This document shows positions 3 through 53,888 of a DNA stretch of 63,172 nt, one piece after another. How positions within the stretch are numbered: position 1 is the first letter of the stretch; every line of letters starts with the position of its first letter. The stretch comes from an uncultured Pelagibacteraceae bacterium (lineage in GTDB: Bacteria; Pseudomonadota; Alphaproteobacteria; Pelagibacterales; Pelagibacteraceae), in assembly GCA_902573755.1 (NCBI GenBank), contig CACGLD010000003.1, positions 1-63,172 on the forward strand. Direction: 5' to 3'. The notes under the pieces were generated by a model. It worked only from the letters and a program-made list of their open reading frames with translations, did no database searches and was not told the origin of the DNA. A program made the translations under genes and the position numbers.

Positions 3-953
3 TCCAATGATGAAGGAATTCTATCAATTATGTATCACCGTTTTAATGAGAATAAGTACCCCTCAACCAATATTAAAATGGATATATTTAAGGAACATAT
101 AAATATTATTAAGAACTCAGATTTTAATTTTCATAATCCAAATAATTTTGATGAACAGTTTAATAAACCAAAACAAAAAAAAGAAATTCTTATAACTATC
201 GATGATGCTTTTGAGTCTTTTTATACTGAAGCATGGCCTTATCTAAAAGAAAATAAAATTCCATTTATTTTATTTGTTTCAACTGAACCAGTGGGAAAAA
301 GAGGTTACATGACTTGGGAGCAAATTAAAGAGGTTGAGGGGAATAAATTTGCAAATATAGGACATCATTCTCATACTCATGAATATCTCATAGATGTAAG
401 CAATGAAGAATTTATTTTAGATATTGAAACGGCTAATAAAATTTTTCTAAGGGAACTTGGTTATATCCCTAACCTATTCTCATATCCTTTTGGTGAATAC
501 TCTAAATTTATGAAAGACTATATATCTAAAAATTTTAAATATGCTTTTGGTCAGCATTCTGGCGTAATTGATTTAAATAAAGACAAATTTGAATTACCTA
601 GATTTCCAATTAATGAAAAATACGGCGAGTTAAAAAGATTTAAATCAATAGTAAATTATTTTCCACTTGAATATAAAAGAATACTTCCTGAAGAAAAACA
701 ATTATTCGTAAACACTAACCCTCCAAATTTTAAAGTTGAATTTTTCAAGGAGCAAAAAAATTTAACTAATATTAGTTGTTATTCTAACGAGGGAAACGTT
801 TGGGAAAAATCAAATACAAGCTTTGCTAATAACACTCTAACAATTAAATTTAGAGAACCATTCAAACCAAGAAGAGGTAGAATTAATTGTTCTTTGAATG
901 ATAATGGAAAATGGAGATGGTTTGGGGTTCAATTTCCTATAAAAGAAAACTAA
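3..953 (+). CDS. Polysaccharide deacetylase (NodB-like) family protein, 5' end cut off
   Basis: The reading frame is open from the first bases of the window, so the Met at 30 is internal (it is the MYHR motif common in this family) and the true start lies upstream. Counting from that Met, a NodB-type metal motif TIDDA is at about residues 56-60 (family usually TFDDG), the second motif HSHTH at about 112-116 and a SYPFGEYS segment at about 150, so the Asp-His-His metal ligands appear present. About 100 C-terminal residues lie beyond the core. Known family members deacetylate cell-wall or surface glycans; the substrate here cannot be told. It ends convergently on the Bax-like gene, sharing the bases CTAA. 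Confidence 0.8.
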   Translation, partial: SNDEGILSIMYHRFNENKYPSTNIKMDIFKEHINIIKNSDFNFHNPNNFDEQFNKPKQKKEILITIDDAFESFYTEAWPYLKENKIPFILFVSTEPVGKRGYMTWEQIKEVEGNKFANIGHHSHTHEYLIDVSNEEFILDIETANKIFLRELGYIPNLFSYPFGEYSKFMKDYISKNFKYAFGQHSGVIDLNKDKFELPRFPINEKYGELKRFKSIVNYFPLEYKRILPEEKQLFVNTNPPNFKVEFFKEQKNLTNISCYSNEGNVWEKSNTSFANNTLTIKFREPFKPRRGRINCSLNDNGKWRWFGVQFPIKEN

Positions 954-25037: not shown

Positions 25038-26038
25038 TTTTAAAATCATATGAAATTCAAAAAATAAAACCCAGCAATAATAGCATAATTTTATTTTATG
25101 GTCAGAATCAGGGAGCAAAAGAAGAAGCCATCTCAACAATAATTAATAATAATGAAAATAGATCAGTAATAAAATATGAGGAAAAAGAATTTTTAGAAAA
25201 CTCTGAAACGACATTTGAGAACATTTTATCCAAATCCTTATTTGAAGATAAAAAAATAATAATTATAAATAGAGCATCTGATAAAATACTAAATTCAATA
25301 AACTATTTTCAAGAAAAAGATCTTTCAGATATATTAATTATAATAGATGCAAATAATTTAGAAAAAAAATCAAAATTGAGATCTTTCTTTGAAAAAGATA
25401 AGAATTGTATATGCGTAGCATTTTATCCCGATAACCAAGAATCTTTATCAAAAATAATTTATGTTTTCTTAAAAGAAAACAATCTTAAAATTTCACAGTC
25501 TAATTTGAATTTAATAATTAACAAGTGTAATGGAGATCGGGGTGTTTTAAAAAATGAACTTAATAAAATTTTATTTTTTACAAAAAATAATAAAAAGTTA
25601 ACGGAAGAAAATCTTTTTAAATTAATAAATTTGATTGAAAATTATAGTATTTCTGAACTAATTGATAATTGTTTAGCAAAAAATAAAAGCAAAACTCTTT
25701 TAATGCTTAATGAAAACATTTTTAATGTTGAAGATTGTATAATTATAACAAGAGTTTTTTTACAAAAAATAAAAAGGTTATTAAAATTAAATAAAGAGTT
25801 TAGTAAAAATAATAATATAGAAAAAACTATATTAGAGGCTAAACCAGCAATATTTTGGAAAGATAAAGAAATTGTTAAACAACAAATTAAAAATTGGAAC
25901 AGTGATGATATTTTTAATTTATTAAAAACGGTCAATCAAATAGAATTGGTAGTGAAAAAAAATAAGACTGATCCTATAAATATTATTAGGAACTTAATTA
26001 TAGAAATTATATCTGTACGTTCTAATAATACTGTTTAA
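25034..26038 (+). CDS. holA: DNA polymerase III, delta subunit
   Basis: The protein has 334 residues. It has the HolA outline: N-terminal IILFYGQNQGAKEEAIS (degenerate P-loop of the AAA-like fold), LFEDKKIIIINRASDK near 75-90, and NKCNGDRGVLKNELNKI around 165-180. The delta subunit opens the beta clamp during clamp loading. Very Lys/Asn/Ile-rich. Overlaps lptE by 4 bp and runs 17 bp into the end of convergent parB. Confidence 0.92.
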   Translation: MILKSYEIQKIKPSNNSIILFYGQNQGAKEEAISTIINNNENRSVIKYEEKEFLENSETTFENILSKSLFEDKKIIIINRASDKILNSINYFQEKDLSDILIIIDANNLEKKSKLRSFFEKDKNCICVAFYPDNQESLSKIIYVFLKENNLKISQSNLNLIINKCNGDRGVLKNELNKILFFTKNNKKLTEENLFKLINLIENYSISELIDNCLAKNKSKTLLMLNENIFNVEDCIIITRVFLQKIKRLLKLNKEFSKNNNIEKTILEAKPAIFWKDKEIVKQQIKNWNSDDIFNLLKTVNQIELVVKKNKTDPINIIRNLIIEIISVRSNNTV

Positions 26039-26864
26039 TTATCTCGATTATTTTATTTAATTGATCTAAGTCTTTATACTCAAAAGAAATTTTTCCCTTA
26101 TTTCTATTATTATTTTGTATATCTACATTTATACCAATTTTATTAGAAATTGAGAGTTCTAGTGCAATAATATTTGTATCCTTTGTTTTGTTTGATTTTA
26201 TTTTTTTATTTTTAAAAATTTTTACAAAGGTTTCGGCTTGTCTAACAGATAGTTTCTTTTCTAGAATTTTATTAGCTACAAAGCTTGCATTAGGAAGCCC
26301 AACTAAAATTTTAGCATGACCTGCGGTAATTTTTTGTGTCTCAATCAACTTTATTACATCCTCAGGCAATGTTAAAAGTCTCAATGAGTTGGTTATATGG
26401 CTTCTACTTTTGCCAATAAATTTTGACACCTTCTCTTGGTCATATGAGAAATCATCAATCAATCTTTTGTAACCTTGTGCTTCTTCCAGTGGATTTAGAT
26501 CATGTCTTTGAACATTTTCAACAATAGCGAATTCTAATGATTTCAAATCATCAGCCTCCGTTATTACTACAGGTACATTATGAAGACCTGCTTTTTGAGC
26601 CGCTAACCATCTTCTTTCACCAGCAATTATTTCAAACTTTGATCTATCATTATTTGAATTTCTAACAATTATAGGCTGTATCATTCCTCTTTCTTTAATC
26701 GAATTGGTTAGATCTTCTAAACTAGCTTCGTCAAATATTTTCCTTGGTTGATATTTATTTGGCACTAAATCACTAATTGATACTTGATTTTTTTCAGCCT
26801 CTACTTTTGTTTCTCCTATCAATGAAGATAATCCCCTGCCTAAACCTTTTTTAATTTTGTCCAT
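26022..26864 (-). CDS. parB: Chromosome partitioning protein ParB
   Basis: The protein has 280 residues. N-terminal GLGRGLSSLIGE, then the CTP-binding/parS-spreading domain with GERRW at 82-86, the arginine-rich box NVQRHDLNPLEEA, a helix-turn-helix (SKFIGKSRSHITNSLRLLTL) and a C-terminal dimerisation tail. ParB loads onto parS and forms the partition complex moved by ParA. A perfect parS lies 1.4 kb away inside rsmG. Starts 1 bp overlapping parA. Confidence 0.98.
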   Translation of the reverse strand: MDKIKKGLGRGLSSLIGETKVEAEKNQVSISDLVPNKYQPRKIFDEASLEDLTNSIKERGMIQPIIVRNSNNDRSKFEIIAGERRWLAAQKAGLHNVPVVITEADDLKSLEFAIVENVQRHDLNPLEEAQGYKRLIDDFSYDQEKVSKFIGKSRSHITNSLRLLTLPEDVIKLIETQKITAGHAKILVGLPNASFVANKILEKKLSVRQAETFVKIFKNKKIKSNKTKDTNIIALELSISNKIGINVDIQNNNRNKGKISFEYKDLDQLNKIIEIIKQYY

Positions 26865-27658
26865 TAAGCTGCGCTCCCTATTGTTGCTTCTTGACTGATA
26901 AACTCATCGGTAAAACTGAAATATGATTTACTACCCGGACAGGTCTTGTCATAAATCAAAACTGGCATACCATGGGAGGGTGCTTCTGACAGTCTGACAT
27001 TCCTTGGTATGACAGTTGAGTAAACTTTTTCACTAAAATAATCCCTAGCTTCTTTCTCAACTTGTGATGAAAGCTTATTTCTTTTGTCGTACATAGTTAA
27101 AAGTATACCTCTGATTTTCAAATCTGGATTTAAACTTACTTTTATCCTTTCGATTGTTTTCATTAGCTGTGTTAACCCTTCTAAAGCAAAAAATTCAGTC
27201 TGAAGTGGTACCAATAGAGAGTTCGAACTTACAAGTGCCATAACTGTCAACAAGCTTAACGAAGGTGGGCAATCGATCAAGACATAATCATATAATCTTC
27301 TAGAATCATTCAAATATGCGGTTAATTTAGTCTTTAGTATAAAAGCCCTATTGCTGTCATCAGCCGTCTCTACTTCTAAGCCAGATAAATCTACATTAGA
27401 TGTTATAATATCTAAATTTTCAAACTGTGTTTTTTTAATCACATCATTAATTTCTCTAGTTCCATTCAAAACTCCATAAATTGTATCACTTGAGTTATCC
27501 ATATTAGATAATCCTAGACCTGTGGTAGCATTACCTTGTGGATCTAAGTCAATAACTAAAATTTTTTTATCTATTTGAGATAAACCTGCTGCAAGATTTA
27601 TCACCGTAGTAGTTTTTCCAACCCCACCCTTTTGATTTATTACTGAAATAATTTGCAT
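26864..27658 (-). CDS. parA: Chromosome partitioning ATPase ParA
   Basis: The protein has 264 residues. The deviant Walker A KGGVGKTT is at 10-17, Walker A' DLDPQGNATTG follows at about 38-48, and DCPPSLSLLT near 125 is Walker B. Without a long N-terminal extension, it is the chromosomal ParA/Soj type. It drives segregation of ParB-parS complexes. The rsmG-parA-parB order is the classic origin-proximal cluster. Confidence 0.98.
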   Translation of the reverse strand: MQIISVINQKGGVGKTTTVINLAAGLSQIDKKILVIDLDPQGNATTGLGLSNMDNSSDTIYGVLNGTREINDVIKKTQFENLDIITSNVDLSGLEVETADDSNRAFILKTKLTAYLNDSRRLYDYVLIDCPPSLSLLTVMALVSSNSLLVPLQTEFFALEGLTQLMKTIERIKVSLNPDLKIRGILLTMYDKRNKLSSQVEKEARDYFSEKVYSTVIPRNVRLSEAPSHGMPVLIYDKTCPGSKSYFSFTDEFISQEATIGSAA

Positions 27659-28303
27659 TTAATTTTTTTTTTTGATTTTTTTAATATTTATTAAAAATGA
27701 GTCTTCACTTGTTAAACTTTTCTTTTCTATATACTCCAGCTCCCAATTTTTTTTGGAATTTTTAAAAATTTTTTTCCCACTCTTCCCCATAAAAAAAATT
27801 AAATTTTTATATTTTGAAAAATTTTCATATACTAATTCTAAAACTACTGGCATTGGTTTAAATGCTCTTGACATTATCGTTCCTGTTTCTAAATTTTTTA
27901 TTTCAAAAATATTTTTTTGAAAAACTTTTGTGTTTAAATTTAATTTTTTTGAAACTTCCTTTAAAAAATGGCTTTTATGATAGCTTTTTTCATAAAGGTG
28001 CACATTCATATTATTTTTCATATTTTTTAGTATAATTGCCACGATTATACCTGGCATACCCCCTCCTGAACCTATATCAGTGGTTGTATTGCTATTTAAG
28101 TCAACAAAATCAATAATTTGTGCTGAATCTATAATATGACGGTCAATTATAGCCTTTTTTGATGCTGTATTTTGGCTAATTATATTGATTTTCTTATTTT
28201 TTTCAAGAATCATAGATATATAGTTTTCAAAGTCCAAAAATGTTTCACGTGAAACATTTAAGTGATTGATTCTAGAATAAGAATTTAAAATTTCCTGATC
28301 CAT
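27659..28303 (-). CDS. rsmG: 16S rRNA (guanine527-N7)-methyltransferase RsmG (GidB)
   Basis: The protein has 214 residues. SAM-binding motif TTDIGSGGGMPGI at about 73-85, and the N-terminal NVSRETF typical of RsmG. The DNA that encodes NVSRET (residues 16-21) is itself a perfect parS site, so coding and partition functions share sequence. It methylates N7 of G527 in 16S rRNA. Very Lys/Asn-rich towards the C-terminus. Overlaps mnmG by 1 bp; abuts parA. Confidence 0.95.
   Translation of the reverse strand: MDQEILNSYSRINHLNVSRETFLDFENYISMILEKNKKINIISQNTASKKAIIDRHIIDSAQIIDFVDLNSNTTTDIGSGGGMPGIIVAIILKNMKNNMNVHLYEKSYHKSHFLKEVSKKLNLNTKVFQKNIFEIKNLETGTIMSRAFKPMPVVLELVYENFSKYKNLIFFMGKSGKKIFKNSKKNWELEYIEKKSLTSEDSFLINIKKIKKKN
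28241..28256. other. parS: parS centromere site
   Basis: TGTTTCACGTGAAACA, a perfect 16-bp palindrome identical to the bacterial parS consensus. It lies inside rsmG, 47 bp from its start codon, 1.4 kb from parB and about 7.2 kb from the predicted origin. I found no second perfect copy in the window. Confidence 0.95.
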
Positions 28304-30174
28304 TAAGCTATATGCTTAATAGACTTTCTTTTGACATGTGACAACAAAATATATACAGCGGAAGGAGTTATTCCGTCAATTCTTAGAGCTTGACCCATTG
28401 TTTTGGGCTTTATCTCTTTAAATTTTGCTTTCACCTCATTAGATAAACCAGATAGGCTGTCATAATTAATTTTGTCTGGAATAATTAGGTTTTCGTCCCT
28501 CTTAAATGCTAAAATATCTGCTTTTTGCTTCTTTAAATATCCTCTGTAATGAGAGTTAATTTCCACTTGTTCATCAATTTCTTTGCTAAAAAAAGGTATA
28601 TCGGACCATATTTCCCTGATTTTATTCATATTAACACCTTTTTGAGTTAAAACTTCGCTAGATGATCTCAATATTCCGTCTTTTGCTATTTTTATTCCAA
28701 ATTTTTCAGCTTTAGATGGTGAAATCTTTGATTCGTTCATTTTTATATTAATTTGGCTGATTTTCTCAAATTTACTTAAATATATAGCTTTTCTATGATC
28801 ACCAATTACACCAATATCTATTCCCTTGGCAGTTAATCTTTGATCAGCATTATCTGATCTCAAACTCAATCGATATTCTGCTCTTGATGTAAACATTCTG
28901 TATGGCTCAGCTACTCCCTTGGTAACTAAATCATCAATCATGACTCCGATATAAGCATCGGATCTATCAAGTATGAATGGTTCTAATTTTTTAACGGACA
29001 AAGCAGCATTTATTCCAGCTATTAGGCCTTGTGCAGCAGCTTCCTCATATCCTGTTGTTCCATTAATCTGACCGGCTAGATAAAGGTTGCTTATCTTCTT
29101 TGTTTCAAGGGTTAAGAATAGTTCACGTGGATCTACATAGTCATATTCTATTGCATATCCTGGTCTTAATATAGTAACATTATCTAAACCATTGATATTA
29201 TTACATATTTCTTGCTGAACCTCAGCTGGAAGTGATGTTGAGATACCATTTGGGTAAATTGTATGATCATTTAGACCCTCAGGTTCTAAAAATATCTGAT
29301 GACGAACTTTATCTGCAAATTTTACTATTTTATCTTCTATTGATGGACAATATCTTGGGCCTACTCCTTTTATACTACCCGAGTACATAGCACTCTTTGA
29401 TAAATTCTTTTCTATAATTTTGTGAACCTTCTCATTTGTATATGTCATTCTACATGACACTTGTTTATTTAAATTTTTTTTTGTTAAGAATGAAAAAAAA
29501 TAAGGATCGTCATCTGCGAATTGTTCCTCTAAGTTTTCAAAATTAATTGTCCTTGAATCTAACCTTGGTGGTGTTCCGGTTTTTAATCTTCCAATTTTAA
29601 AGTTATATTTTGCTAATTGTTCACTCAAACCTGTAGAAGGTTTTTCATCGTATCTTCCAGCAGGAGTTCTTTCATCGCCTATATGTATCAAACCATTCAA
29701 AAAAGTCCCTGTTGTGAGTATTATCTTGTTAGATAGAACTTTCTTACCTTCTTTAGTTTCAAATCCACTTATTGAATTTTTATCAAAAATAAACTTTATT
29801 ACAGGATCGGAAAAAACACTTAAATTACAATAGTTTAGCAATATTTCTTGCATATATTTACGATAAAGTGATCTATCTGATTGAGTTCGTGGTCCTCTGA
29901 CTGCTGGCCCTCTACTTCTATTTAACAATCTAAATTGTATGCCTGATTTGTCTGCTACATCTCCCATAACACCATCAAGGGCATCTATTTCTCTAACCAA
30001 ATGACCTTTACCCAAACCTCCTATTGCCGGGTTACAGGACATCTCTCCAATAGTCTCTATTTTATGAGTAAATAGGGCAGTGTTCACTCCAAGACGAGCT
30101 GATGCTGCTGCAGCTTCACATCCAGCATGGCCTCCTCCAATTACAACTACATCAAATGACAAATCATTTTTCAT
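28303..30174 (-). CDS. mnmG: tRNA uridine-5-carboxymethylaminomethyl modification enzyme MnmG (GidA)
   Basis: An FAD protein of 623 residues, normal length. The dinucleotide-binding [10 protein letters not shown] begins at residue 13; [20 protein letters not shown] and [10 protein letters not shown] are family signatures, and the C-terminal helical domain that binds MnmE/tRNA is present. With MnmE it installs cmnm5 at wobble U34. A hairpin-bearing 117-bp gap separates it from mnmE. Confidence 0.98.
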
Positions 30175-30211
30175 AACCCAAATCTATATGTGATTATATA
30201 ATTTACAAGAT

Positions 30212-30237
30212 AGGCTTAATTTTTTGTAAATTAGCCT
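30212..30237. repeat. Imperfect hairpin upstream of mnmG
   Basis: AGGCT (30212-30216) pairs with AGCCT (30233-30237) and AATTT with AAATT inside it, with one bulged T and a 5-base loop. It lies in the mnmE-mnmG gap; a second 8-bp inverted repeat (TTTATCAA/TTGATAAA) is next to it near 30239-30261. No U tract follows either stem in the direction of transcription, so neither is a standard terminator; a leader or processing element is possible. Confidence 0.35.
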
Positions 30238-30291
30238 TATTTATCAACGTTTTTTGATAAAAAAAGTGCAAAAAACCAGCAAAATAGAGTA

Positions 30292-31623
30292 TTACTTGCC
30301 GATACAAAAATCGTTGAAAATACTACCTAATATTTCCTCTACATCAACTTTTCCAACTATCATACCTAAATGTCTAGTAGCTAATCTTAAATCTTCTGCA
30401 GCTTTATCAAAATCTTCGATTTCTTTTTTTTGATTAAAGTTATTTAGATGATCCAAACACTGTTGCAGATGTTGTCTGTGTCTCTCTCTTGTAATTAAAA
30501 TATCATCACTTGTAATAAATTTATTTTTTAAATTATTTTTTATTTTTAAAATCAATTCTTCAATATTTTTATTTTCTTTTATTGAAATCAAAACATGATT
30601 TATTTTCTTAATTTCAGGATCAATATCTTTTTCTAAAAGGTCAGACTTATTTATAACTAAAATTGCATTTTCATGTAACAGATCCTTCAAAACATCAGTA
30701 AAATCAGGGCTTTTTGCGTCAATCACAACAAGTTTTAAATCTGCCTCTTCGGCTCTATTTAGAGATAATTTAATACCTTTTTTTTCTATCTCATTTTTAG
30801 AGTCTCTTATTCCGGCTGTATCTGAGATTATAACTGGATAACCATCTATATTTAGATGAGTCTCAATTACGTCTCTGGTTGTACCAGCAATTTCAGAAAC
30901 AATCGCTACATCTCTATTGGATAAATGATTTATTAAACTAGACTTACCAGCATTTGTTGGTCCAAGTATAGCAATTTTAAAACCTTCTCTAATTCTTTCT
31001 CCAACTTTTTGATCGTTTAATATTTTTTTAATTTTAGTTATTACTTCATCTGAACTATTTTTGATTTCATCTAAAATATTATCAGGCAGATCTTCCTCGG
31101 GAAAATCAATTTTCGCCTCAACATGTGATAAAATTTTTAAAAGTTTTTCTCTAAGAAAATTAAATTTATCAGATGATTTTCCATTCATGATTTTGATTGC
31201 TTGTTGCCTCTGAATTTCTGTTTCTGAAGAAATCAAATCAGCAATACTTTCTGCTTTAAGTAAATTTATTTTTCCATTTTGAAATGCTAGTTTTGTAAAT
31301 TCACCTGGCTCGGCTAATCTACAATTTTGTATATCTGAAAGAGAGGAGTGCAGGGCATCCACAACAGCTTTACTGCCATGGACTTGAATTTCAGCCATAT
31401 CCTCGCCTGTGTAGCTCTCAGGCCCAGGAAACCAAAGAATTAGTCCCTCATCAATCAGTTCAGAAGTGTTGATTTTGTTGATTTTTCTTAATGTTGCTAC
31501 TCTCGGCTTTGGTGGCTCTTTGCCAGTTAAAATTTTAATTGCTTTTGAGGCGTCTTGTCCTGAAAGTCTTATAACAGCCACTCCTGATATACCAGGACCA
31601 GTCGATAAAGCATAAATTGTCAT
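30292..31623 (-). CDS. mnmE: tRNA modification GTPase MnmE (TrmE)
   Basis: The protein has 443 residues. N-terminal TIYALSTGPGISGVAVIRLSG (folate-binding domain), the G domain with P-loop GPTNAGKSS at 221-229, DTAG at 268-271 and NKSD, and the invariant C-terminal CIGK with its modification-essential Cys. Partner of MnmG in wobble uridine modification. The G1 loop reads PTNAGKS rather than the usual PNAGKS, a small deviation. Lies 62 bp downstream of rho. Confidence 0.98.
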   Translation of the reverse strand: MTIYALSTGPGISGVAVIRLSGQDASKAIKILTGKEPPKPRVATLRKINKINTSELIDEGLILWFPGPESYTGEDMAEIQVHGSKAVVDALHSSLSDIQNCRLAEPGEFTKLAFQNGKINLLKAESIADLISSETEIQRQQAIKIMNGKSSDKFNFLREKLLKILSHVEAKIDFPEEDLPDNILDEIKNSSDEVITKIKKILNDQKVGERIREGFKIAILGPTNAGKSSLINHLSNRDVAIVSEIAGTTRDVIETHLNIDGYPVIISDTAGIRDSKNEIEKKGIKLSLNRAEEADLKLVVIDAKSPDFTDVLKDLLHENAILVINKSDLLEKDIDPEIKKINHVLISIKENKNIEELILKIKNNLKNKFITSDDILITRERHRQHLQQCLDHLNNFNQKKEIEDFDKAAEDLRLATRHLGMIVGKVDVEEILGSIFNDFCIGK

Positions 31624-31685
31624 TCAGAGATTATATCTTCAAATTTATGTCTCTGTAAAACTTAAAATTGTAATGAAAAATTCTT

Positions 31686-32954
31686 TTAAGCTGGTTTATT
31701 CATTGAGTTAAAAAACTCAGCGTTATTTTTTGTGTCTTTTAATTTTGAGTTAATAAACTCTATGGCATCCATGGTTCCCATTGGAGCAATTATTCTTCTA
31801 AGCACGTTCATTTTTTGTAGATCATTTTTATCAAATAATAATTCTTCTCTTCTTGTGCCCGATTTTGTTATATCAATCGCTGGGTATATTCTTTTATCTG
31901 CGATTTTTCTATCTAGTATTGTTTCGCTATTACCTGTTCCTTTAAATTCTTCAAAAATAACTTCATCCATTCTGCTTCCTGTATCAATTAAAGCTGTGGA
32001 GATAATTGTTAATGAACCACCTTCCTCAATGTTTCTTGCTGCACCGAAAAATCTTTTAGGTCTTTGTAGTGCATTTGCATCAACACCCCCTGTTAAAACT
32101 TTACCAGAGCTAGGTATTACTGCGTTATAAGCTCTTCCTAAACGTGTTATAGAATCTAACAAAATAATAACATCTTTTTTATGCTCAGTAAGCCTTTTTG
32201 CTTTTTCAATAACCATTTCGGCTACTGCTACGTGCCTTTGAGCTGGTTCATCAAAAGTGGAGCTAATTACTTCACCTTTTACTGTTCTTTGCATATCAGT
32301 TACCTCTTCTGGACGCTCATCGATCAGCAGCACCATAAGATAACATTCTGGATAATTTTTTGCTATTGAGTTTGCAATACTTTGCAAAATCATTGTCTTA
32401 CCAGCTTTAGGTGGAGAAATAATTATAGATCTTTGTCCCTTTCCGATTGGACTAACCAGATCAATAAGTCTTGGGGTTAAATCTTGTTTTTTTTCAACTT
32501 TTGTGGTTTCGACTTCCATCACCAGCTGCTTGTCTGGGTATAAGGGGGTTAAGTTATCAAATGCAATTTTATGTCTTGCTTTTTCTGGTTCTTCAAAATT
32601 TATCTTACTAACTTGTAATAACGCAAAATATCTTTCTCCTTCTTTAGGTGCTCTCACTGGACCTTCTACAGTATCTCCAGTTCTTAAACCAAATTTTCTA
32701 ATCTGACTTGGGCTTACATAAATATCATCTGGTCCTGGTAAATAATTTGACTCCATTGCTCTTAGAAAACCAAAGCCGTCTTGTAATAACTGCAATACAC
32801 CTACGCCAGTAATTTCCTCTTTTTCGGCAACTTTTTTAAGTATTGCAAAAAGTATTTCTTGTTTTCTTAATGTGCTGGCATTTTCTATACCAAGCTCTTC
32901 TGCTTGTGTAATAAGCTGTTCAGATGATTTTAGTTTTAGTTCTTGAATATTCAT
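31686..32954 (-). CDS. rho: Transcription termination factor Rho
   Basis: The protein has 422 residues. N-terminal helical and RNA-binding (CSD) domain with [22 protein letters not shown] broken across about 60-81, Walker A PPKAGKT at 181-187, Walker [17 protein letters not shown] hexameric RNA helicase that ends transcription at sites without hairpins; important here because only two intrinsic terminators are visible in 63 kb. A perfect inverted repeat sits just before its start. Confidence 0.99.
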
Positions 32955-32965
32955 GATTAATTTTT

Positions 32966-32981
32966 TGATAAGGACTTATCA
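32966..32981. promoter_or_regulatory. Inverted repeat in the rho leader
   Basis: TGATAAGGACTTATCA (plus reading) is a perfect 7-bp-arm inverted repeat ending 11 bp upstream of the rho start codon. As RNA it would form a 6-bp stem with a 4-base loop near the ribosome binding site. Could be an operator or a translational control element; Rho is autoregulated in other bacteria. Confidence 0.35.
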
Positions 32982-33020
32982 GATACCTTTAATATATATA
33001 CTGCTGTCGTTATTTCAACC

Positions 33021-33455
33021 CTAGATTGGCTTAAAAATTGCTAAAAATACAACAATAATCAAGATTACAGTGGGTATTTCATTAATAATTCTAAAGAATT
33101 TTGAAGATCTTGTGTTTGTAGAATTTTTTAGAGCAACAAGACATTTTCCTAAATAATCATTGTATGCTGATAACAATATCACCAAGACAATTTTTATTTG
33201 AAACCATAATTGAGAAAAAATGTCTATTCCATTGAGATAAATTAATACTAACCCAAAAACCCAAGTAAAAATCATTGCAGGTCGCATAATGTAAAAAAAT
33301 AATTTTTTTTCCATTACCTCAAATATGTCGGTTGCTTCTTTTTTCTCTTTATTTTCAACATGGTAAACAAAAATTCTAGGAAGATATAAAAGACCAGCCA
33401 TCCAAGAAACCAAAGCAATTAAATGTAAAGATTTAAATAATAAATAGGAATTCAT
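33021..33455 (-). CDS. hemJ: Protoporphyrinogen IX oxidase HemJ
   Basis: The protein has 144 residues with four hydrophobic helices. The opening KSLHLIALVSWMAGLLYLPR contains the conserved His of the HemJ (UPF0093) family, with YHVEN following. It is an inner-membrane, quinone-linked oxidase that converts protoporphyrinogen IX to protoporphyrin IX. The start is 3 bp after hemH, which performs the next step. Confidence 0.93.
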   Translation of the reverse strand: MNSYLLFKSLHLIALVSWMAGLLYLPRIFVYHVENKEKKEATDIFEVMEKKLFFYIMRPAMIFTWVFGLVLIYLNGIDIFSQLWFQIKIVLVILLSAYNDYLGKCLVALKNSTNTRSSKFFRIINEIPTVILIIVVFLAIFKPI

Positions 33456-33458
33456 ATA

Positions 33459-34454
33459 TCAGATATTTCTTTCGATTAACGAGTTTAGTAAAGTTATATG
33501 ATCACTATTATCATTTAAACATGGTACCATATCAAAATTTTCTCCTCCTGAATTTAAAAAACTTTCTTTGGCTTGAATTTGAATTTCCTCTAAAGTCTCC
33601 ACACAATCAGATGCAAAGCCTGGGCAAATTGTAAGAACTTTTTTGATACCCTCTTTGGGTAAATTTTCCAGAGTCTTGTCAGTATATGGTTGGAGCCATT
33701 CTTGTGGACCAAATCTTGACTGAAATGTAGTTCTAATTTCAGTTGAAGTAAATTTTTCTGAAATAAGTCTTGTCGTTTTATGACAATAACAATGATAAGG
33801 ATCACCTTTATCAAAATATTTTTTTGGTATCCCGTGGTAAGAGGCTATAATTAGGTCTGGTTTCCAATTAATTTCTTTTATTTTTTTGTTAATCGAATTA
33901 ACAAGCGCATCAATGTAGAGCGGGTCGGATTCGTAATGAGGAATTATTTTTAAAGAAGGTTGCCACCTCATTTTCATTAAAGTTCTGTATACTTCATCAC
34001 AAACTGTTGCTGTTGTAGCTGCTGCGTATTGAGGATAAAGCGGAAGTATCACCAAGTTTTCACAACCCATTTTATGTAATTTATGAATTTTGCTTTTAAT
34101 ACTCGGATTTCCATATCTCATTGCAAAATCTATAATAATATTTTCTTTTGATAGTGAGTTTGAAATTTTTTCACTTTGCTTTTTCGTATAATAAAGAAGT
34201 GGTGACATATTTTCATCCTTCATCCAGATTTCTTTATATGCTTTAGCAGTTTTAGAGGGTCTAAAATTTAAAATAAATAGATTTAAAATTATTTGCCAAA
34301 CTAACGGATTTACCTCGATAACTCTTCTATCAGAAAGAAATTCTTTTAAATATTTTCTTATATCAAGCCAATTAGTAGAATCGGGTGTACCTAAATTAAT
34401 TATAAGCACACCAGTATTACCGTGTTTTATTGATGGGTGATTTTTTTCGATCAT
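33459..34454 (-). CDS. hemH: Ferrochelatase
   Basis: The protein has 331 residues. GVLIINLGTPD near 15-25, IASYHGIPKKY with the metal-binding His, FQSRFGPQEWLQPYTDKTLE and a C-terminal GFASDCVETLEEI with the conserved Glu. It inserts ferrous iron into protoporphyrin IX at the inner face of the membrane. No C-terminal Cys cluster. Overlaps hemE by 4 bp, forming hemE-hemH-hemJ. Confidence 0.97.
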   Translation of the reverse strand: MIEKNHPSIKHGNTGVLIINLGTPDSTNWLDIRKYLKEFLSDRRVIEVNPLVWQIILNLFILNFRPSKTAKAYKEIWMKDENMSPLLYYTKKQSEKISNSLSKENIIIDFAMRYGNPSIKSKIHKLHKMGCENLVILPLYPQYAAATTATVCDEVYRTLMKMRWQPSLKIIPHYESDPLYIDALVNSINKKIKEINWKPDLIIASYHGIPKKYFDKGDPYHCYCHKTTRLISEKFTSTEIRTTFQSRFGPQEWLQPYTDKTLENLPKEGIKKVLTICPGFASDCVETLEEIQIQAKESFLNSGGENFDMVPCLNDNSDHITLLNSLIERNI

Positions 34455-35455
34455 TTAAAATCTTTTACAATTTTAATTAAGTTTTCAACCATTTCTGGAT
34501 TTGTTTCAGGCATAATACCATGACCAAGATTAAATATATATGGATGGTCCCGAAAAATTTCCAAGTATTTAGAAGTCTCTTTTTTTAATGTTTCTTTATC
34601 TGTTAATAAAATTTTAGGATCTAAACCTCCTTGTATGGGTATTTTTATATCCTTGAGTATATTTTTTGGATCAACATTATAATCGATGTTAACAGCATCA
34701 GGTTTAACAATGTCACAAAATTCTTTATAATTCTTTATTTCCCTAGGAAAACATATTACTGGTACATTTAAAGATTTTACATAATTTACCAAATTTAAAG
34801 TTGGGGCATAAACGTAATTTGGTAAATCTTTTTCCTCCAATAAACCAGCCCAACTATCAAAAATTTGAATTACATTTGCACCATTATCAATTTGATTCTT
34901 TATGTGAACCTTTAGAAATTTTTCAATAATTAATAAGATTCTGTTAATTAAAAATTCATCTTGAAAAAAATTTTTTTTTAGGTTTTTTTTAGGAGACTGT
35001 TGATTGATCATATAAACTAATAATGTCCAAGGAGCACCAACAAAACCAATGGTATTTTTATTGTTTAAACTGGTGTTAGAACTAACTTTTTTTATTGCTT
35101 TGTATACACGATGTATTTTTTCTACAAAATCGACTTCATCGATCTTAGCAATCTCATTCAAGTTTAATTCTCCTAATTTTGGTCCAAAGTTTTTCTCAAA
35201 TTCCACTTTTTGGCCTAATCCATATGGAATCATTAAGATATCTGAAAATATTATTGCAGCATCCAGATCAAATCTTTTCAATGGTTGTAGAGTTATTTCT
35301 GAAGATAAATCATCATTTAAACACAAATTAATAAAATTAGGATTTTCTTTTCTTATTTCTCTAAATTCTGGTAAATACCTACCTGCCTGTCTCATAATCC
35401 ATATAGGATTAAACGAAGTATCTTTATTAACTATTATTTTGTTTAAAGGTTTCAT
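34451..35455 (-). CDS. hemE: Uroporphyrinogen decarboxylase
   Basis: The protein has 334 residues. N-terminal PIWIMRQAGRYLPEFREIR holds the substrate-binding Arg motif; FVGAPWTLLVYM and C-terminal FNLGHGIMPETNPEMV are also family signatures. Decarboxylates uroporphyrinogen III to coproporphyrinogen III in the cytoplasm. Its start borders the predicted origin; in Caulobacter hemE flanks the origin in the same way and is transcribed away from it. Confidence 0.98.
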   Translation of the reverse strand: MKPLNKIIVNKDTSFNPIWIMRQAGRYLPEFREIRKENPNFINLCLNDDLSSEITLQPLKRFDLDAAIIFSDILMIPYGLGQKVEFEKNFGPKLGELNLNEIAKIDEVDFVEKIHRVYKAIKKVSSNTSLNNKNTIGFVGAPWTLLVYMINQQSPKKNLKKNFFQDEFLINRILLIIEKFLKVHIKNQIDNGANVIQIFDSWAGLLEEKDLPNYVYAPTLNLVNYVKSLNVPVICFPREIKNYKEFCDIVKPDAVNIDYNVDPKNILKDIKIPIQGGLDPKILLTDKETLKKETSKYLEIFRDHPYIFNLGHGIMPETNPEMVENLIKIVKDFK

Positions 35456-35493
35456 AAAAAAATATTATTAATTATTGTAGTTGTAATATATCT

Positions 35494-35608
35494 TGTGAAT
35501 AAAGGTGATTATTTTTTGTGAACATTATATTCACACTTTATCATCATTTTATGTGACTAAAATTGTTTAAAATGAAGCTTTTTTTGTCATATTAATTTTT
35601 GTGGATTG
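35494..35608. promoter_or_regulatory. Cluster of DnaA-box-like sites
   Basis: Against TTATnCACA / TGTGnATAA: TGTGAATAA at 35494-35502 is exact; ATATTCACA at 35527-35535 and TGTGACTAA at 35552-35560 have one mismatch; TGTGAACAT at 35517-35525 and TGTGGATTG at 35600-35608 have two. Four of the five share the TGTGA core. Confidence 0.6.
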
Positions 35609-35661
35609 TTTTAACCTATTTATTATTAATGTTAATAAATTGTAGTTTTTACCAGGTTAAT

Positions 35662-35676
35662 TTAAGAAATTTTTAA
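35662..35676. promoter_or_regulatory. CtrA-type box 1 (TTAA-N7-TTAA)
   Basis: TTAAGAAATTTTTAA is an exact match to the CtrA consensus. In such AT-rich DNA one copy could be chance; its place in the predicted origin, where CtrA represses initiation in Caulobacter, makes it worth recording. Confidence 0.4.
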
Positions 35677-35709
35677 ATTGTGTAATTTAATTAAAATAAT
35701 ACAAATTTG

Positions 35710-35724
35710 TTAACGATTTATTAA
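35710..35724. promoter_or_regulatory. CtrA-type box 2, overlapping the ppsR start
   Basis: TTAACGATTTATTAA is an exact TTAA-N7-TTAA match whose last A is the first base of the ppsR ATG. The left half TTAACGAT is close to the extended TTAACCAT form. Second exact copy within 63 bp of box 1. Confidence 0.42.
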
Positions 35725-36551
35725 TGAGTAATACATATCAAATATATTTAATTTCGGACTCAACGGGTGAAACCTTAGATAGAATTTTTTTAGCTCTTAA
35801 GGCTCAATTTCTAAATATAAAATATAAAGTTCATTCTTATTCTTTTACAAGAACAGAGAACCAAATTTTAAAAATTTTAAAAGATGCAGAAGAAAACACA
35901 AACGCAATAATTTTGTATACTATTGTCGATAATAATTTGGCTAAGTATTTAGCCAATGTAAGCGAAGATAAAAAAATTCCGTGTTTTGGTGTTCTTGGAA
36001 ATTTAATTTTAAATTTTTCAAAAATTCTCAATCAAAAAGCAACTCATGAACCAAGCGGCCAACATATATTAAACGAAGAATATTATGATAGAATAGAAGC
36101 AATTCAATTTACAATGAATCATGATGACGGGAATTTGATAAATGAAGTACACAAATCCGATATCATTCTTGTAGGTGTAAGCAGAACAAGCAAAACACCC
36201 ACATCAATTTATTTAGCCAACAAAGGATTTAAAACATCAAACATTCCTTTAGTAAATGAACATTCGTTACCAGAAATTCTTAAGAAAAATCCTAAAATGG
36301 CATGTGTAGTAGGATTAAGTACTGAACCAGAGAGATTGGCTGACTTAAGAAAGAATAGAATGAATTCTTTAAAAGAGACAGAGAACATACAATACACAGA
36401 CTTAGAAAACATCAAAAAAGAGGTTTTAGAAGCGAAAAAAACATTTCAAAAATATAAATGGCCCCTTATAGATGTAACAAGGAAGTCCGTTGAGGAAACG
36501 GCTGCTTCTATAATTAAAATCCACGAAATATATACAAACAATGCTAGATAA
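35724..36551 (+). CDS. ppsR: PEP synthase/pyruvate phosphate dikinase regulatory kinase-pyrophosphorylase (DUF299)
   Basis: The protein has 275 residues. Opening ISDSTGETLDR and the P-loop-like GVSRTSKTPTSIYLANKG near 150-167 define the DUF299 family. Members switch PEP synthase or PPDK off and on by ADP-dependent phosphorylation and Pi-dependent dephosphorylation of a Thr. The target enzyme is not in this window. First gene to the right of the origin, as in Caulobacter; no ribosome binding site is visible before the ATG. Overlaps maf by 11 bp. Confidence 0.96.
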   Translation: MSNTYQIYLISDSTGETLDRIFLALKAQFLNIKYKVHSYSFTRTENQILKILKDAEENTNAIILYTIVDNNLAKYLANVSEDKKIPCFGVLGNLILNFSKILNQKATHEPSGQHILNEEYYDRIEAIQFTMNHDDGNLINEVHKSDIILVGVSRTSKTPTSIYLANKGFKTSNIPLVNEHSLPEILKKNPKMACVVGLSTEPERLADLRKNRMNSLKETENIQYTDLENIKKEVLEAKKTFQKYKWPLIDVTRKSVEETAASIIKIHEIYTNNAR

Positions 36552-37125
36552 AATTATTCTTGCCTCAAAAAGCAAGGTTAGAAAAGAAATTCTAGATAAA
36601 AACAATATTAAAAGTTACGTTGTGCCATCAAATGTTGATGAGGATATTGTTAAAATAAGTTTGTTAAAAGAAAAAGCAAGCCCAGAAATTATATCAAAAA
36701 ATTTAGCAGAATTAAAAGCAAACAAAGTGAGCCTAAAGAAAACAAATGAAATAGTTTTAGGGGCTGATAGCGTAATAGATCTAAACGGCGAATTAATATC
36801 AAAGCCAGAAACTAGAGAAGAAGCCATGACAATATTAAAGAAGCTCAACGGTAAATCACACTTTTTAATCAGCTCTGTTTGTTTGTCAAAAAATGGATCA
36901 ATGATTTGGAATTATACTGATAAAGCTAAATTAACTATGAAAAATTTTTCCAATGAAGAATTAACAAGTTATTTGTCTAAAATATCAGATGAAGCACTCT
37001 ATGCGTATAATGTTTATCAAATAGAAGGTGAGGGAAAAAATTTATTTGCAAACATAAACGGTGATGAAGACACAATAATGGGTCTGCCTGTTAAAAAAAT
37101 AAAGGAATACATTAGATCATTATAA
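36541..37125 (+). CDS. maf: Maf-family nucleoside triphosphate pyrophosphatase
   Basis: The protein has 194 residues. N-terminal ILASKSKVRKEIL (substrate motif SxSPRRxxxL, here without the Pro), GADSVIDLNGELISKP near 69-84 with the catalytic Asp, and a C-terminal NIDGxxxxxMGLP-like NINGDEDTIMGLP. Hydrolyses modified or non-canonical NTPs. Between ppsR and aroE as in other alphaproteobacteria, overlapping both. Confidence 0.94.
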   Translation: MLDKIILASKSKVRKEILDKNNIKSYVVPSNVDEDIVKISLLKEKASPEIISKNLAELKANKVSLKKTNEIVLGADSVIDLNGELISKPETREEAMTILKKLNGKSHFLISSVCLSKNGSMIWNYTDKAKLTMKNFSNEELTSYLSKISDEALYAYNVYQIEGEGKNLFANINGDEDTIMGLPVKKIKEYIRSL

Positions 37126-37919
37126 TGAAAAAATATTTAGTCATTGGAAATCCCATTAGCCATTCGCTTTCTCCAAAACTTCAAAATTATTGGTTAAAGC
37201 AACATAATATTAATGCTATTTATGACAAATTAAAATTAGAAGAAAAAGAAATTGAAGGAATAATTCAAGACATAAGAAAACAAAAAATTGCTGGTTGTAA
37301 TGTTACCGTTCCATTTAAAAAGAAGGTAATTCCTTTCTTAGACAAATTAAGCATCCAAGCAGAACAAACTCAGTCAGTAAATACGATTATTTTTGAAAAG
37401 GGTAATTTGATCGGACATAATACAGATATTGTTGGTTTTGATAAAGCAATTAAATCTCTCAATTTTAACATGAAGGGTAAAAAAATATTAATTTTAGGTG
37501 CCGGTGGTGTGGTTCCATCAATAGTTTTTGCCCTAAAAAAAATGGATGTTTCTGAAATTACCATTAGCAACAGAACTAAACAAAAAGCAGAAAATTTAAA
37601 AATTTTATTTAAGAACTTAAATATTTTAGAATGGGGAAATTTATTAGACTTTGATGCTATCATAAATGCTACAAGTCTTGGTTTGAATAATGAAAAAATA
37701 AATTTAGATTTTTCGAAAGTTGGAAAAAACAAATTATTTTATGATGTAATTTATAATCCTGCCGAAACGAACTTTTTAAAGGAAGGAAAACAATTTGGAA
37801 ATACAAGCGAAAATGGAGCAAAAATGTTTGTTTATCAGGCTTTAGAAGCATTTAAATTATGGCATGGCGTTGAACCAGAAATTAATTTTGAAACCTTAAA
37901 ACTTTTAAAAAATGATTAG
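37125..37919 (+). CDS. aroE: Shikimate dehydrogenase
   Basis: The protein has 264 residues. GNPISHSLSPKLQN at 7-20 binds shikimate; NVTVPFKKKV contains the catalytic Lys; HNTDIVGF the conserved Asp; and GAGGVVPSIVFAL the NADP-binding loop. Fourth-to-last step of the route to chorismate. Overlaps maf by 1 bp and coaE by 8 bp. Confidence 0.96.
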   Translation: MKKYLVIGNPISHSLSPKLQNYWLKQHNINAIYDKLKLEEKEIEGIIQDIRKQKIAGCNVTVPFKKKVIPFLDKLSIQAEQTQSVNTIIFEKGNLIGHNTDIVGFDKAIKSLNFNMKGKKILILGAGGVVPSIVFALKKMDVSEITISNRTKQKAENLKILFKNLNILEWGNLLDFDAIINATSLGLNNEKINLDFSKVGKNKLFYDVIYNPAETNFLKEGKQFGNTSENGAKMFVYQALEAFKLWHGVEPEINFETLKLLKND

Positions 37920-38484
37920 AATTGGAATTTTAGGAAATATTGGTTCTGGGAAAAGTTATGTAGCAAAAAATCTAGGTTATCCAGTATTTGATGCGGATTA
38001 CGAAGTTACAATACTTTATAAAAAAAGCAGAAAAATATTTTTAAAATTAAAGAAAATACTACCCAATAACATAAAAACTTTTCCAATTGAAAAAAAGGAA
38101 ATGATTAAGGCTATATTACAAAAAAAAGGAAATTTAAAAAAAATAATCAAGATAGTCCATACTGAAATTAGAAAAAAAATGAATTTTTTTTTGAAAAAAC
38201 ATAAAAATAAAAAATTTGTAGTATTAGACATTCCTCTACTGTTAGAGAATAAGCTTAATAAAAAAGGAGATATCTTAATATTTGTAGACTCTAAAAAATC
38301 AGATGTCTTAAAAAAATTAAAGAAAAGAAAAAATTTTAATAAAAAGTTATTTAATAAATTCCAAAAACTTCAATTTTCACCAAAATATAAAATTAGAAAA
38401 TCAAATTTTATAATTAAAAATGATTTCACTAAAAAAACAATAGACACTAATATCAAAAATGTTCTAAAAAATATAAACAAATGA
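37912..38484 (+). CDS. coaE: Dephospho-CoA kinase
   Basis: The protein has 190 residues. P-loop GNIGSGKS at 8-15, the substrate DAD motif in PVFDADYEV, and VVLDIPLLLE with the lid-side Leu run. Last step of coenzyme A synthesis. Exceptionally rich in Lys (poly-Lys/Asn stretches), even by the standards of this window. Overlaps dnaQ by 4 bp; the aroE-coaE-dnaQ order is conserved in alphaproteobacteria. Confidence 0.95.
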   Translation: MIRIGILGNIGSGKSYVAKNLGYPVFDADYEVTILYKKSRKIFLKLKKILPNNIKTFPIEKKEMIKAILQKKGNLKKIIKIVHTEIRKKMNFFLKKHKNKKFVVLDIPLLLENKLNKKGDILIFVDSKKSDVLKKLKKRKNFNKKLFNKFQKLQFSPKYKIRKSNFIIKNDFTKKTIDTNIKNVLKNINK

Positions 38485-39146
38485 AAGAAGTAGTTTTAGA
38501 TACTGAGACCACGGGAATATCTGTAAAAGATGGTCATAGAATTGTTGAAATAGGATGTATAGAGCTTGAAAATTTAATACCCACTAAAAATAAATTTCAT
38601 TATTATCTAAATCCTGAGAGAAAAGTGTCCGAACAGGCTTTGAAAGTTCACGGATATACTGATAATTTTTTATCAAAACAAAAAAAGTTCGTAGATATTA
38701 GTAATGAATTTTTAGAATTTATAAAAGGTAAAAGACTTATAATTCATAATGCTGAGTTTGACCTTTCTCATTTGAATAATGAATTAAGTATTATTGGTAA
38801 AAGAAAAATTGAAAATGAGTTTAAGGATACGTTGGTTATAGCAAGAGATAAGTTCCCTGGATCCCAAGTAAGTTTAGATGCCCTGTGTAAAAGATATAGA
38901 ATAGATAATTCTAGAAGGGTTACTCACACGGCTTTAATTGACTGTGATCTGCTTGCCAGAGTTTATATTAATTTAATTGACCAAAAAGAACCTACGTTAA
39001 ATTTTCAAAATCTTGAGCAGGAAAATTTAAATAGTAAAAATACTAATTTGGACTATTTTAAAAAAATAGTTAAGCCCACCTCTGAAGAATTAAAAAAGCA
39101 TGAGGAATATCTCAAAAAAAATTTGAAAAACAATTATTTTAATTAA
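38481..39146 (+). CDS. dnaQ: DNA polymerase III epsilon subunit (3'-5' proofreading exonuclease)
   Basis: The protein has 221 residues. Exo motif I LDTETTG with Asp7 and Glu9, Exo II HNAEFDLSHL, Exo III HTALIDCDLLARVY (His and Asp). A short C-terminal tail is for binding the alpha subunit. Proofreads replication. Its 3' end overlaps convergent secB by 8 bp. Confidence 0.97.
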   Translation: MKEVVLDTETTGISVKDGHRIVEIGCIELENLIPTKNKFHYYLNPERKVSEQALKVHGYTDNFLSKQKKFVDISNEFLEFIKGKRLIIHNAEFDLSHLNNELSIIGKRKIENEFKDTLVIARDKFPGSQVSLDALCKRYRIDNSRRVTHTALIDCDLLARVYINLIDQKEPTLNFQNLEQENLNSKNTNLDYFKKIVKPTSEELKKHEEYLKKNLKNNYFN

Positions 39147-41056: not shown

Positions 41057-41908
41057 ATGTTTATTTGGTTAGCATCATATCCGAAGAGCGGTAATACCTT
41101 AGTAAGGTCTATGCTGGCAGCTTATTTCTTTTCAAATGATGGTGTATATAATTTTGATTTAATTAAAAATATTAAACAATTTCCTGTAAATGCTTTGTTT
41201 GAAAAAATGGGAATTGATACTCAAAATGAAGAAGAAGTTTTAAGAAATTATATAAAGGTACAAGAGTCATTTAATAAAAAAGATAGTATTCAATTTTTAA
41301 AAACACATAGTTATTTATTTAATATTAATAATCATGCATTTACAGATTTAAACAATTCCCTTGGAGCCATTTATATCGTGAGAGATCCAAGAAATATTGT
41401 CAGTTCTCTTGCTAATCATATTGGTTCTTCATCTGAAAAATCAGCAGATATATTAATTAATTCATTTAAATTTGGAAATATATTTAGCGAACAAGTTGCC
41501 GAACAAACTAGACTTTATTTAGGAACGTGGAGTGGAAATTATAATAGCTGGAAATCTTTTGACAATAATGGGAGATATTTACTTATTAAATATGAAGATT
41601 TAATAAGTGACAGAGATTTTGTATTTAGAAAAATATTAAAATTTATATATAAACTTCAAGGAGCAAAATTTCATATCGATCAAAAAAAATTTCAAAATTC
41701 AATTGAAACAACTGGTTTTGATAAAATGAAGAGTTTAGAGAAAGCAAAAGGTTTTTTTGAAGCTAAAACTCATGAAAAAACTGGAAAAAAAATTCCATTT
41801 TTCAATCTTGGTCCAAAAAATGATTGGAAGAAAATGTTAGATGAAAAAATTAGAAAAAAAATTGAAGAAGCTTTTAAAAAAGAAATGGTTGAATTGGGAT
41901 ATCTATGA
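41057..41908 (+). CDS. Sulfotransferase-domain protein (copy 1)
   Basis: The protein has 283 residues. The PAPS-binding 5' loop YPKSGNT is at 8-14 and the 3'-phosphate motif RDPRN at 109-113, both complete, followed by a KYEDL segment and a C-terminal IPFFNLGPKNDWKK. Transfers sulfate from PAPS to an alcohol or amine, most likely on a surface glycan or lipid; the acceptor is unknown. Inserted between smr and hslU. A colinear paralogue lies at 53037-53888 with motifs at the same residues. Confidence 0.85.
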   Translation: MFIWLASYPKSGNTLVRSMLAAYFFSNDGVYNFDLIKNIKQFPVNALFEKMGIDTQNEEEVLRNYIKVQESFNKKDSIQFLKTHSYLFNINNHAFTDLNNSLGAIYIVRDPRNIVSSLANHIGSSSEKSADILINSFKFGNIFSEQVAEQTRLYLGTWSGNYNSWKSFDNNGRYLLIKYEDLISDRDFVFRKILKFIYKLQGAKFHIDQKKFQNSIETTGFDKMKSLEKAKGFFEAKTHEKTGKKIPFFNLGPKNDWKKMLDEKIRKKIEEAFKKEMVELGYL

Positions 41909-53036: not shown

Positions 53037-53888
53037 ATGATATTTTGGATAGCCTCATATCCCAAAAGCGGGAACACATGGTTAAGAGCATTGTTGTCAT
53101 CATATTTTTATTCAGAAGAGGGCATTTTCAATCAAAATTTACTTAAAAATATCGATCAATTTCCTGAAAAAAGACATTTTAGCGATTTTAATTATGATCC
53201 TAAAATAGTAACTGATACATCTAAATTTTGGATTAAAGCTCAGGAAAAAATAAATTTAAACAATGAGTTAAATTTTCTCAAAACCCATAATATTTTAGGG
53301 TCAATCAATAACAGTAATTTTACAAATAAAAAAAACACATTTGGCGCCATTTATATTGTGCGGGATCCAAGAAATGTATTAACCTCTTTACAAAATCATT
53401 ATGAATTATCTAAAGATGAAGCTTTGAAATTTATGCTAAGTGAAAAAAAATACATTCACGATTATCAAACAAAAAATGATTTTAGTGATTTTCAATTTAT
53501 AAGTTCTTGGGAGAAAAATTATCAGTCTTGGATAAATCAAAAAATTTTACCAGTAAAATTAATTAGATATGAGGATTTAAATGTTAATACCTTGGATGTT
53601 TTAAAAGAAATAATTGAGTTTATTCAAAATACTATTAAAGAAAAAGAAGACTTTAATTTTTTAAAAGCTCAAAATGCTGTTAAATCTACTAATTTCGAAA
53701 ATATGAAAAATATGGAAAAAAAAAGTGGTTTTTTAGAGTCTGTTTTGTCAAAAAATGACACCAAAAAAATTCCTTTTTTTCATTTAGGACCAAAAAATGA
53801 TTGGAAAAGCATATTTGATAAAAGCTACCAAAATAAATTAAATTCAATTTTTGAAAATAACTTAAAAGAATTAAATTATTTAAAATAA
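53037..53888 (+). CDS. Sulfotransferase-domain protein (copy 2)
   Basis: The protein has 283 residues, paralogous to 41057-41908. YPKSGNT at 8-14 and RDPRN at 109-113 fall on exactly the same residues; the LKTHN, LIRYEDL and IPFFHLGPKNDWK blocks are also shared. PAPS-dependent sulfation of an unknown acceptor. The sequences differ enough that the duplication is not recent. Preceded by 36 bp that also contain the start of the Lon-N gene. Confidence 0.84.
   Translation: MIFWIASYPKSGNTWLRALLSSYFYSEEGIFNQNLLKNIDQFPEKRHFSDFNYDPKIVTDTSKFWIKAQEKINLNNELNFLKTHNILGSINNSNFTNKKNTFGAIYIVRDPRNVLTSLQNHYELSKDEALKFMLSEKKYIHDYQTKNDFSDFQFISSWEKNYQSWINQKILPVKLIRYEDLNVNTLDVLKEIIEFIQNTIKEKEDFNFLKAQNAVKSTNFENMKNMEKKSGFLESVLSKNDTKKIPFFHLGPKNDWKSIFDKSYQNKLNSIFENNLKELNYLK

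Follow-up and report, generated by a model that had tools for sequence, protein, structure and literature searches.

The gap between hemE and ppsR described here is very probably the chromosomal replication origin (oriC) of a SAR11-type bacterium, of the alphaproteobacterial hemE/COG1806 type. SAR11 is a very abundant marine lineage, and its cells are among the most abundant types in the ocean. The gap lies within the window, by which we mean the whole stretch of 63,172 nucleotides that was analyzed, and the genome to which the window belongs is represented by an assembly of 62 contigs that is 68.6% complete (G000). The location of the gap, its conservation, the layout of its DnaA boxes and DnaA-trios, and the switch in strand asymmetry around it are direct observations. 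A sequence-only reading had put the gap forward as a probable chromosomal origin, and both the conservation of the boxes in relatives and the pooled asymmetry switch support that proposal. As described in PMC1914354, an origin between hemE and a COG1806 gene was identified experimentally in Caulobacter and predicted in Rickettsia, so the location of the gap is expected. The SAR11 gap is a known, textbook kind of element; here it is mapped to the base.

The gap is exactly 268 bp long, and it and its flanking genes are as follows:

34451..35455, minus strand: hemE, uroporphyrinogen decarboxylase, left flank (TIGR01464 above its cut-off)
35456..35723, no strand: candidate oriC, the whole hemE-ppsR gap (constant length and conservation in relatives)
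35724..36551, plus strand: ppsR/COG1806-type kinase-pyrophosphorylase, right flank (PF03618 and NF003742 above their cut-offs)

The AT content of the gap (83%) is higher than that of any 2-kb window across the 63 kb (62%–79%). If spurious overlapping ORFs are ignored, all genes are on the minus strand from 26022 to 35455 (9.4 kb) and on the plus strand from 35724 to 39146 (3.4 kb). The sequence-only reading had described an AT-rich 268-bp gap between these genes and a polarity diverging from it (about 9 kb minus on the left, 3.4 kb plus on the right), and coordinates and composition bear out both statements. Its assignment of the two genes as those that flank the Caulobacter and Rickettsia origins (PMC1914354) also holds, with both recognized by family models. 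The product of ppsR scores below the cut-off of the narrower PpsR model NF049928, and its best named matches are from uncultured Pelagibacteraceae, with 97% identity at most. The likeness to Caulobacter crescentus Cori and the Rickettsia origins, as these are presented in PMC1914354, comprises the hemE and COG1806 (PpsR/DUF299) flanks, the AT-rich gap, and the presence of several DnaA boxes. Three longer “gaps” appear in the window when genes are called from ATG only, and these hold ORFs of 137–193 amino acids with GTG or TTG starts. Once they are set aside, the hemE-ppsR gap is the longest in the window, and there is no further gap >200 bp when such ORFs count as genes. Elsewhere in the window, two ORFs of 283 amino acids each (41057–41908 and 53037–53888) have closely similar starts (ASYPKSGNT) and are likely paralogs, sulfotransferase-like by eye.

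The parABS system is found near the origin in Caulobacter, and the window contains the following components of it:

26022..26864, minus strand: parB (ParB_N, HTH_ParB, and ParB_C above cut-off)
26864..27658, minus strand: parA (Pfam AAA_31 and related; the name follows from the family and the neighboring parB)
28242..28255, no strand: parS, GTTTCACGTGAAAC, inside the gidB reading frame (the assembly's only perfect copy)

These lie 7.2–9.4 kb from the gap, in agreement with the earlier placement of parABS 7–9 kb away. Ten of 11 genomes have exactly one perfect parS, 7.2–19.5 kb from the gap or the ppsR start (7.2–9.9 kb in the same genus, 16.7–19.5 kb in three other genera). The exception, G011, carries just a copy with one mismatch, 9.5 kb away. 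G015 has a second copy, with one mismatch, beside the perfect one. At two mismatches, the counts are about those of a reversed-pattern control.

Of 297 genomes searched, 228 had a ppsR match. The gap was examined in 60 genomes of the order: the top 30 matches, among them the window's own genome, and another 30 selected for completeness and a spread of genera. A gap of 261–286 bp with hemE and ppsR as flanks is found in 58 of the 60, and its length stays nearly constant across genomes in which PpsR identity falls to 51%. Gaps with <80% identity to one another among the 60 form a non-redundant set of 26; for one of these rows (L059), the 320 bp upstream of ppsR were used because hemE is not adjacent. 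A second set, of close sequences, combined the window with 80 named loci. Both genes were obtained from 80 of these 81; the exception, L269, has just 244 bases before ppsR. The named loci are the best 80 of 577, and some are probably shared with the other genomes compared. In the resulting set of 80 sequences, mean column conservation over the whole gap is 0.923, compared with 0.75 for ppsR (80 sequences) and 0.81 for hemE (76 sequences) at third codon positions. The box columns are likewise better conserved than third codon positions (box 1, 0.999; boxes 2, 3, 5, and 6, 0.96–0.99; box 4, 0.92). Neither ppsR nor hemE was found in four drafts that are 92%–96% complete (G072, G082, G123, and G139), from which the origin region is perhaps missing.

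The evidence for the DnaA boxes comes from comparison rather than from this one sequence. Window-wide, TTWTNCACA was found five times (11.6 expected) and TTATCCACA with no more than one mismatch 18 times (20.5 expected). Neither count is above chance, and so single-sequence counts were not used as proof. The gap is nevertheless the window's densest 280-bp stretch and the only one with three sites above the matrix threshold, by a margin of one site and with a matrix whose training gaps include the window's own. Thus, the earlier claim of DnaA-box-like sites in the gap does not stand on the single sequence, whereas it is strong by comparison among relatives: TTATNNACA occurs 71 times in the 26 non-redundant gaps, as opposed to 8.6 ± 2.9 times in dinucleotide shuffles, and is present in 25 of the 26 (maximum of 200 shuffles, 22). 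A prior-free 7-mer enrichment on the same gaps ranks the DnaA-box core top. Among gaps outside the matrix training, that of G020 has five sites and that of G011 four, compared with no more than three in other 280-bp stretches of these genomes (400 kb sampled of each). The gap of G005 (L034) has one site above threshold, and another sampled G005 stretch has three; the L052 gap has two weak sites and no TTATNNACA. In the window's genus, sites recur, counted from the hemE side, at about 38–43 (minus), 61–64 (plus), 72–89 (plus), 169–192 (minus), and 250–270 (plus), and extra sites at about 125–141 and 160–171 (plus) occur mainly in other genera. The comparison with relatives that the sequence-only reading had called for was run, and the boxes proved to be enriched and kept at recurring places across the order.

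Read from hemE, the order of parts is an AT-rich edge, trios, a spacer, box 1, boxes 2–4, a variable middle, box 5, and box 6. The individual features (conservation is from the 80 close sequences) are:

35456..35474, no strand: AT-rich edge beside hemE, putatively belonging to the unwinding element and lying past the trios (from sequence, with function suggested by the trio layout)
35475..35489, plus strand: DnaA-trio-like array (period-3 pattern; 0.978 conserved)
35490..35493, no strand: 4-nt spacer from trios to box 1 (the trio-side base, −4, is G in 81% of the 26 gaps and A in the window)
35494..35502, minus strand: DnaA box 1, TTATTCACA, trio-proximal (0.999 conserved)
35516..35524, plus strand: box 2 of the tandem array, TTGTGAACA, majority TTATAAACA (0.982 conserved; in the window, short of the matrix threshold)
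35527..35535, plus strand: box 3 of the tandem array, ATATTCACA (0.962 conserved; in the window, short of the matrix threshold)
35538..35546, plus strand: box 4, a weak member of the tandem array, TTATCATCA, majority TTACCAACA (0.919 conserved; below threshold in the window)
35552..35560, minus strand: DnaA-box-like site, TTAGTCACA (above threshold; poorly conserved, with 35549–35560 only 0.751)
35600..35608, minus strand: conserved box-like site, CAATCCACA (two mismatches to TTATCCACA)
35630..35638, minus strand: DnaA box 5, TTATTAACA (above threshold; 0.987 conserved)
35707..35715, plus strand: box 6 beside ppsR, TTGTTAACG, majority TTATTAACA (0.964 conserved; below threshold in the window)

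On the plus strand, boxes 2–4 form a tandem series that in the window repeats every 11 bp. The window's copy of the element is weak: one of the three sites above threshold is poorly conserved, and boxes 2, 4, and 6 deviate from the majority. Box 1 itself is above threshold in 11 of the 26 non-redundant gaps, the remainder being weaker variants. The stretch TTGTGGATT at 35599–35607 is 0.986 conserved (80 sequences). A further block, AATTGTTTAAAATGAAGCTTTTTTT (35561–35585), is 0.954 conserved in the 80 close relatives; it is no DnaA box, and the distant gaps compared show no evident counterpart.

The trio array has the clade plurality 5'-TAG TAG TAG TAN TAG-3' (read as 3'-GAT-5'). Its period of three extends from −19 to −5 of box 1 in the 26 non-redundant gaps, with T at −19, −16, −13, −10, and −7 in 88%–100% of them, and A next in 50%–77%. 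TAG occurs 45 times in the array (10.5 ± 3.1 in shuffles), and the mean longest TA[GT] run is 2.50 (1.08 ± 0.10 in shuffles), so the periodicity is above chance for the clade; a strict run of at least three upstream of box 1 is found in 12 of the 26. The window's own array is degenerate (TTG TAG TTG TAA TAT), with the central A in three of five units, not three of them consecutive, and T in the other two. The published search for the basal unwinding system (BUS) takes a DnaA box, at least three consecutive NAN trios, and a spacer of 0–16 nt (PMC8287927). A search of this type gives a mean score of 6.29, as opposed to 3.18 ± 0.68 in shuffles, with per-gap p values from 0.02 to 0.51; in the window, its best match is at box 3 (p 0.12). 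Because this generic search often selects other boxes, a trio test anchored at box 1 was added, and it should be noted that this test was devised after the alignment had been seen.

The BUS, which consists of a DnaA box, a spacer, and DnaA-trios, was described in Bacillus subtilis and has been predicted for 1755 out of 2070 origins (PMC8287927), and reversal of the box is described as inactivating the origin (PMC6669920). The SAR11 layout resembles it in having a conserved box beside a period-3 array of the 3'-GAT-5' type at a spacing of 4 nt, with the trio strand being the 5' tail from the box, as in PMC8287927. It differs from the B. subtilis BUS in that the other side of box 1 carries a tandem array pointing the opposite way, and in that the window's clade has T for the central A in two of five units.

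A rival reading is that the gap is only the divergent promoter region of hemE and ppsR, with conserved sites that serve transcription (e.g., through DnaA or another regulator). In its favor, the gap is AT-rich throughout and is situated between divergent genes, whose promoters it must contain. Genomes in which a neighbor has changed provide a test of this reading. In G001 and G007 (L136 and L137), the gene across the gap from ppsR is rho rather than hemE (its product is 81.7% identical to the window's Rho), and the sole hemE-family match is far away and below the family cut-off, which suggests that hemE was lost or replaced; the stretch before ppsR nevertheless keeps trio-like and box-1 motifs. 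In a second family of the order, ppsR was found in none of the four genomes searched (G002, G004, G006, and G008) and hemE in three. In all three of the latter (G002, G004, and G006), a gap separates hemE from maf and aroE, and each of these gaps has an array of the T[A/T]G type together with CC and TGTG. Their matrix boxes differ (five in L200 of G006, two in L199 of G004, and one in L201 of G002, which may lie inside the start of hemE). The element is therefore kept beside ppsR without an adjacent hemE in two genomes and beside hemE without ppsR in three; it tracks neither gene and is not merely a promoter. The gap also sits at the strand-asymmetry switch described below and is far longer than the window's median positive gap (52 bp, ATG-only gene call). 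We thus consider a role in transcription alone very unlikely, and prefer the origin reading. In one other locus (L135, G158:C1:358209–359194), hemE is in two pieces with in-frame stops, which is either a broken gene or a sequencing error.

Given that the window's own assembly is in many contigs, complete relatives were used to evaluate strand asymmetry. Raw GC skew, sampled in three complete genomes as 20 stretches of 20 kb per genome, gives a broad cumulative curve with minima 59–185 kb off the gap. Raw skew is dominated by gene orientation and was therefore replaced by an orientation-free measure, the third-codon G/C asymmetry of plus-strand genes minus that of minus-strand genes. Pooled over seven genomes, this is negative in all seven hemE-side distance bins and positive in all seven ppsR-side bins, although half of the 14 bins are, clearly or nearly, <2 standard errors from zero (e.g., −0.012 ± 0.024 for −65 to −40 kb), bins >100 kb from the gap rest on three to five genomes, and the genes, being mostly orthologous from genome to genome, are not independent. 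G015 disagrees, with the wrong sign in four of four left bins and two of four right bins. The skew check suggested by the sequence-only reading thus comes out, in substitute form on seven complete relatives, as a pooled sign change at the gap within ~20 kb, with G015 as the dissenting genome. A third-codon measure based on T versus A behaved inconsistently and was set aside.

When a two-arm model is fitted at positions within ±300 kb, the best origin is at +10 kb (95% bootstrap interval, −20 to +15 kb), a position that beats the gap itself by 11.6 log units (binomial, overdispersion ignored); the resolution of the asymmetry is only about ±20 kb. For genomes fitted singly, the best positions are −10 kb in G020 and −36 kb in G011. 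In G005, the best fit is at 510 kb, where the leading and lagging values are swapped; read as the terminus, this implies an origin ~15 kb from the gap. Asymmetry by itself, given the pooled fit at +10 kb, leaves room for an origin at some other site within ~20 kb of the gap, and G005 does have a cluster of three sites 12 kb away. Such a site is highly improbable to us on the other evidence: no other 280-bp stretch of the window holds three matrix boxes, no second gap of >200 bp is available there, and it is the hemE-ppsR gap that is conserved across the order.

A more distant candidate is dnaA, which lies 62–65 kb from the gap on the hemE side in all seven same-genus complete genomes. An origin there would agree with this constant distance, with the sampled raw skew minimum of G011, which adjoins dnaA, and with the misfit between the gap and the local asymmetry of G015. 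However, the pooled segment between gap and dnaA has, weakly, the sign expected for forks leaving from the gap, and the gap is preferred over dnaA in 288 of the 300 bootstraps of the pooled data and in all three genomes fitted singly (by just 2.3 log units in G011). Moreover, the gap upstream of dnaA contains no matrix boxes in any of the eight genomes tested. We find an origin at dnaA scarcely credible, and retain the hemE-ppsR gap. The contig of G009 starts close to dnaA (G009:C1:1120–1326), about as if it had been rotated to dnaA, and has ppsR at 1,090,306.

If the gap is the origin, DnaA would bind box 1 and the tandem boxes 2–4, and also boxes 5 and 6 to the right. A DnaA filament might then grow from box 1 over the trio strand toward hemE, after which the AT-rich edge would melt and the helicase load, by analogy with the systems treated in PMC8287927, PMC10721633, and PMC6669920. 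Boxes 5 and 6 could act as distal sites by looping, in the way put forward for the distal box of B. subtilis (PMC6669920). Two forks would depart in opposite directions, and parABS, 7–9 kb away, would then separate the new origins.

Regulation may differ from that in Caulobacter. Cori has five CtrA sites (PMC1914354), whereas the window's gap has one TTAA-N7-TTAA (35662–35676). Over the 26 gaps, this motif occurs 12 times (6.9 ± 2.4 expected), in 10 gaps, and is not clearly enriched. GANTC is nearly absent, with one occurrence in 26 gaps (3.9 ± 1.8 expected). The window's gap has no exact match to an IHF consensus. The near lack of GANTC and the unclear CtrA signal are hints, neither decisive, of a control unlike that of Caulobacter. 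A bolder reading, which we offer tentatively and consider possible but rather unlikely, is that of a self-standing minimal origin of ~270 bp that keeps its DnaA-box/trio core when either classical neighbor is lost, has shed the CtrA control known from Caulobacter along with GANTC methylation sites, and is governed at initiation by DnaA only.

Coverage in SAR11 is reported to form a V-shaped gradient indicative of a single origin, and coverage between origin and terminus has been used to estimate its replication at sea (PMC9589681); GANTC methylation is reported to be lower near ori (PMC9516812). The place of the origin is not given in the available parts of these two papers. In one recent study, SAR11 whole-genome alignments start at DnaA (PMC12421898), and one growth tool is described as putting dnaA fragments at the origin (PMC7852909). 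We found no statement of a base-level SAR11 origin in the portions of the open-license literature available to us, and DoriC may already predict one for a cultured strain. An origin defined to the base, 62–65 kb from dnaA, would be a better anchor for replication estimates in SAR11, and short DNA scaffolds would make initiation testable in a streamlined lineage. It would also mean that a BUS-like core is carried across an order while the neighboring genes change.
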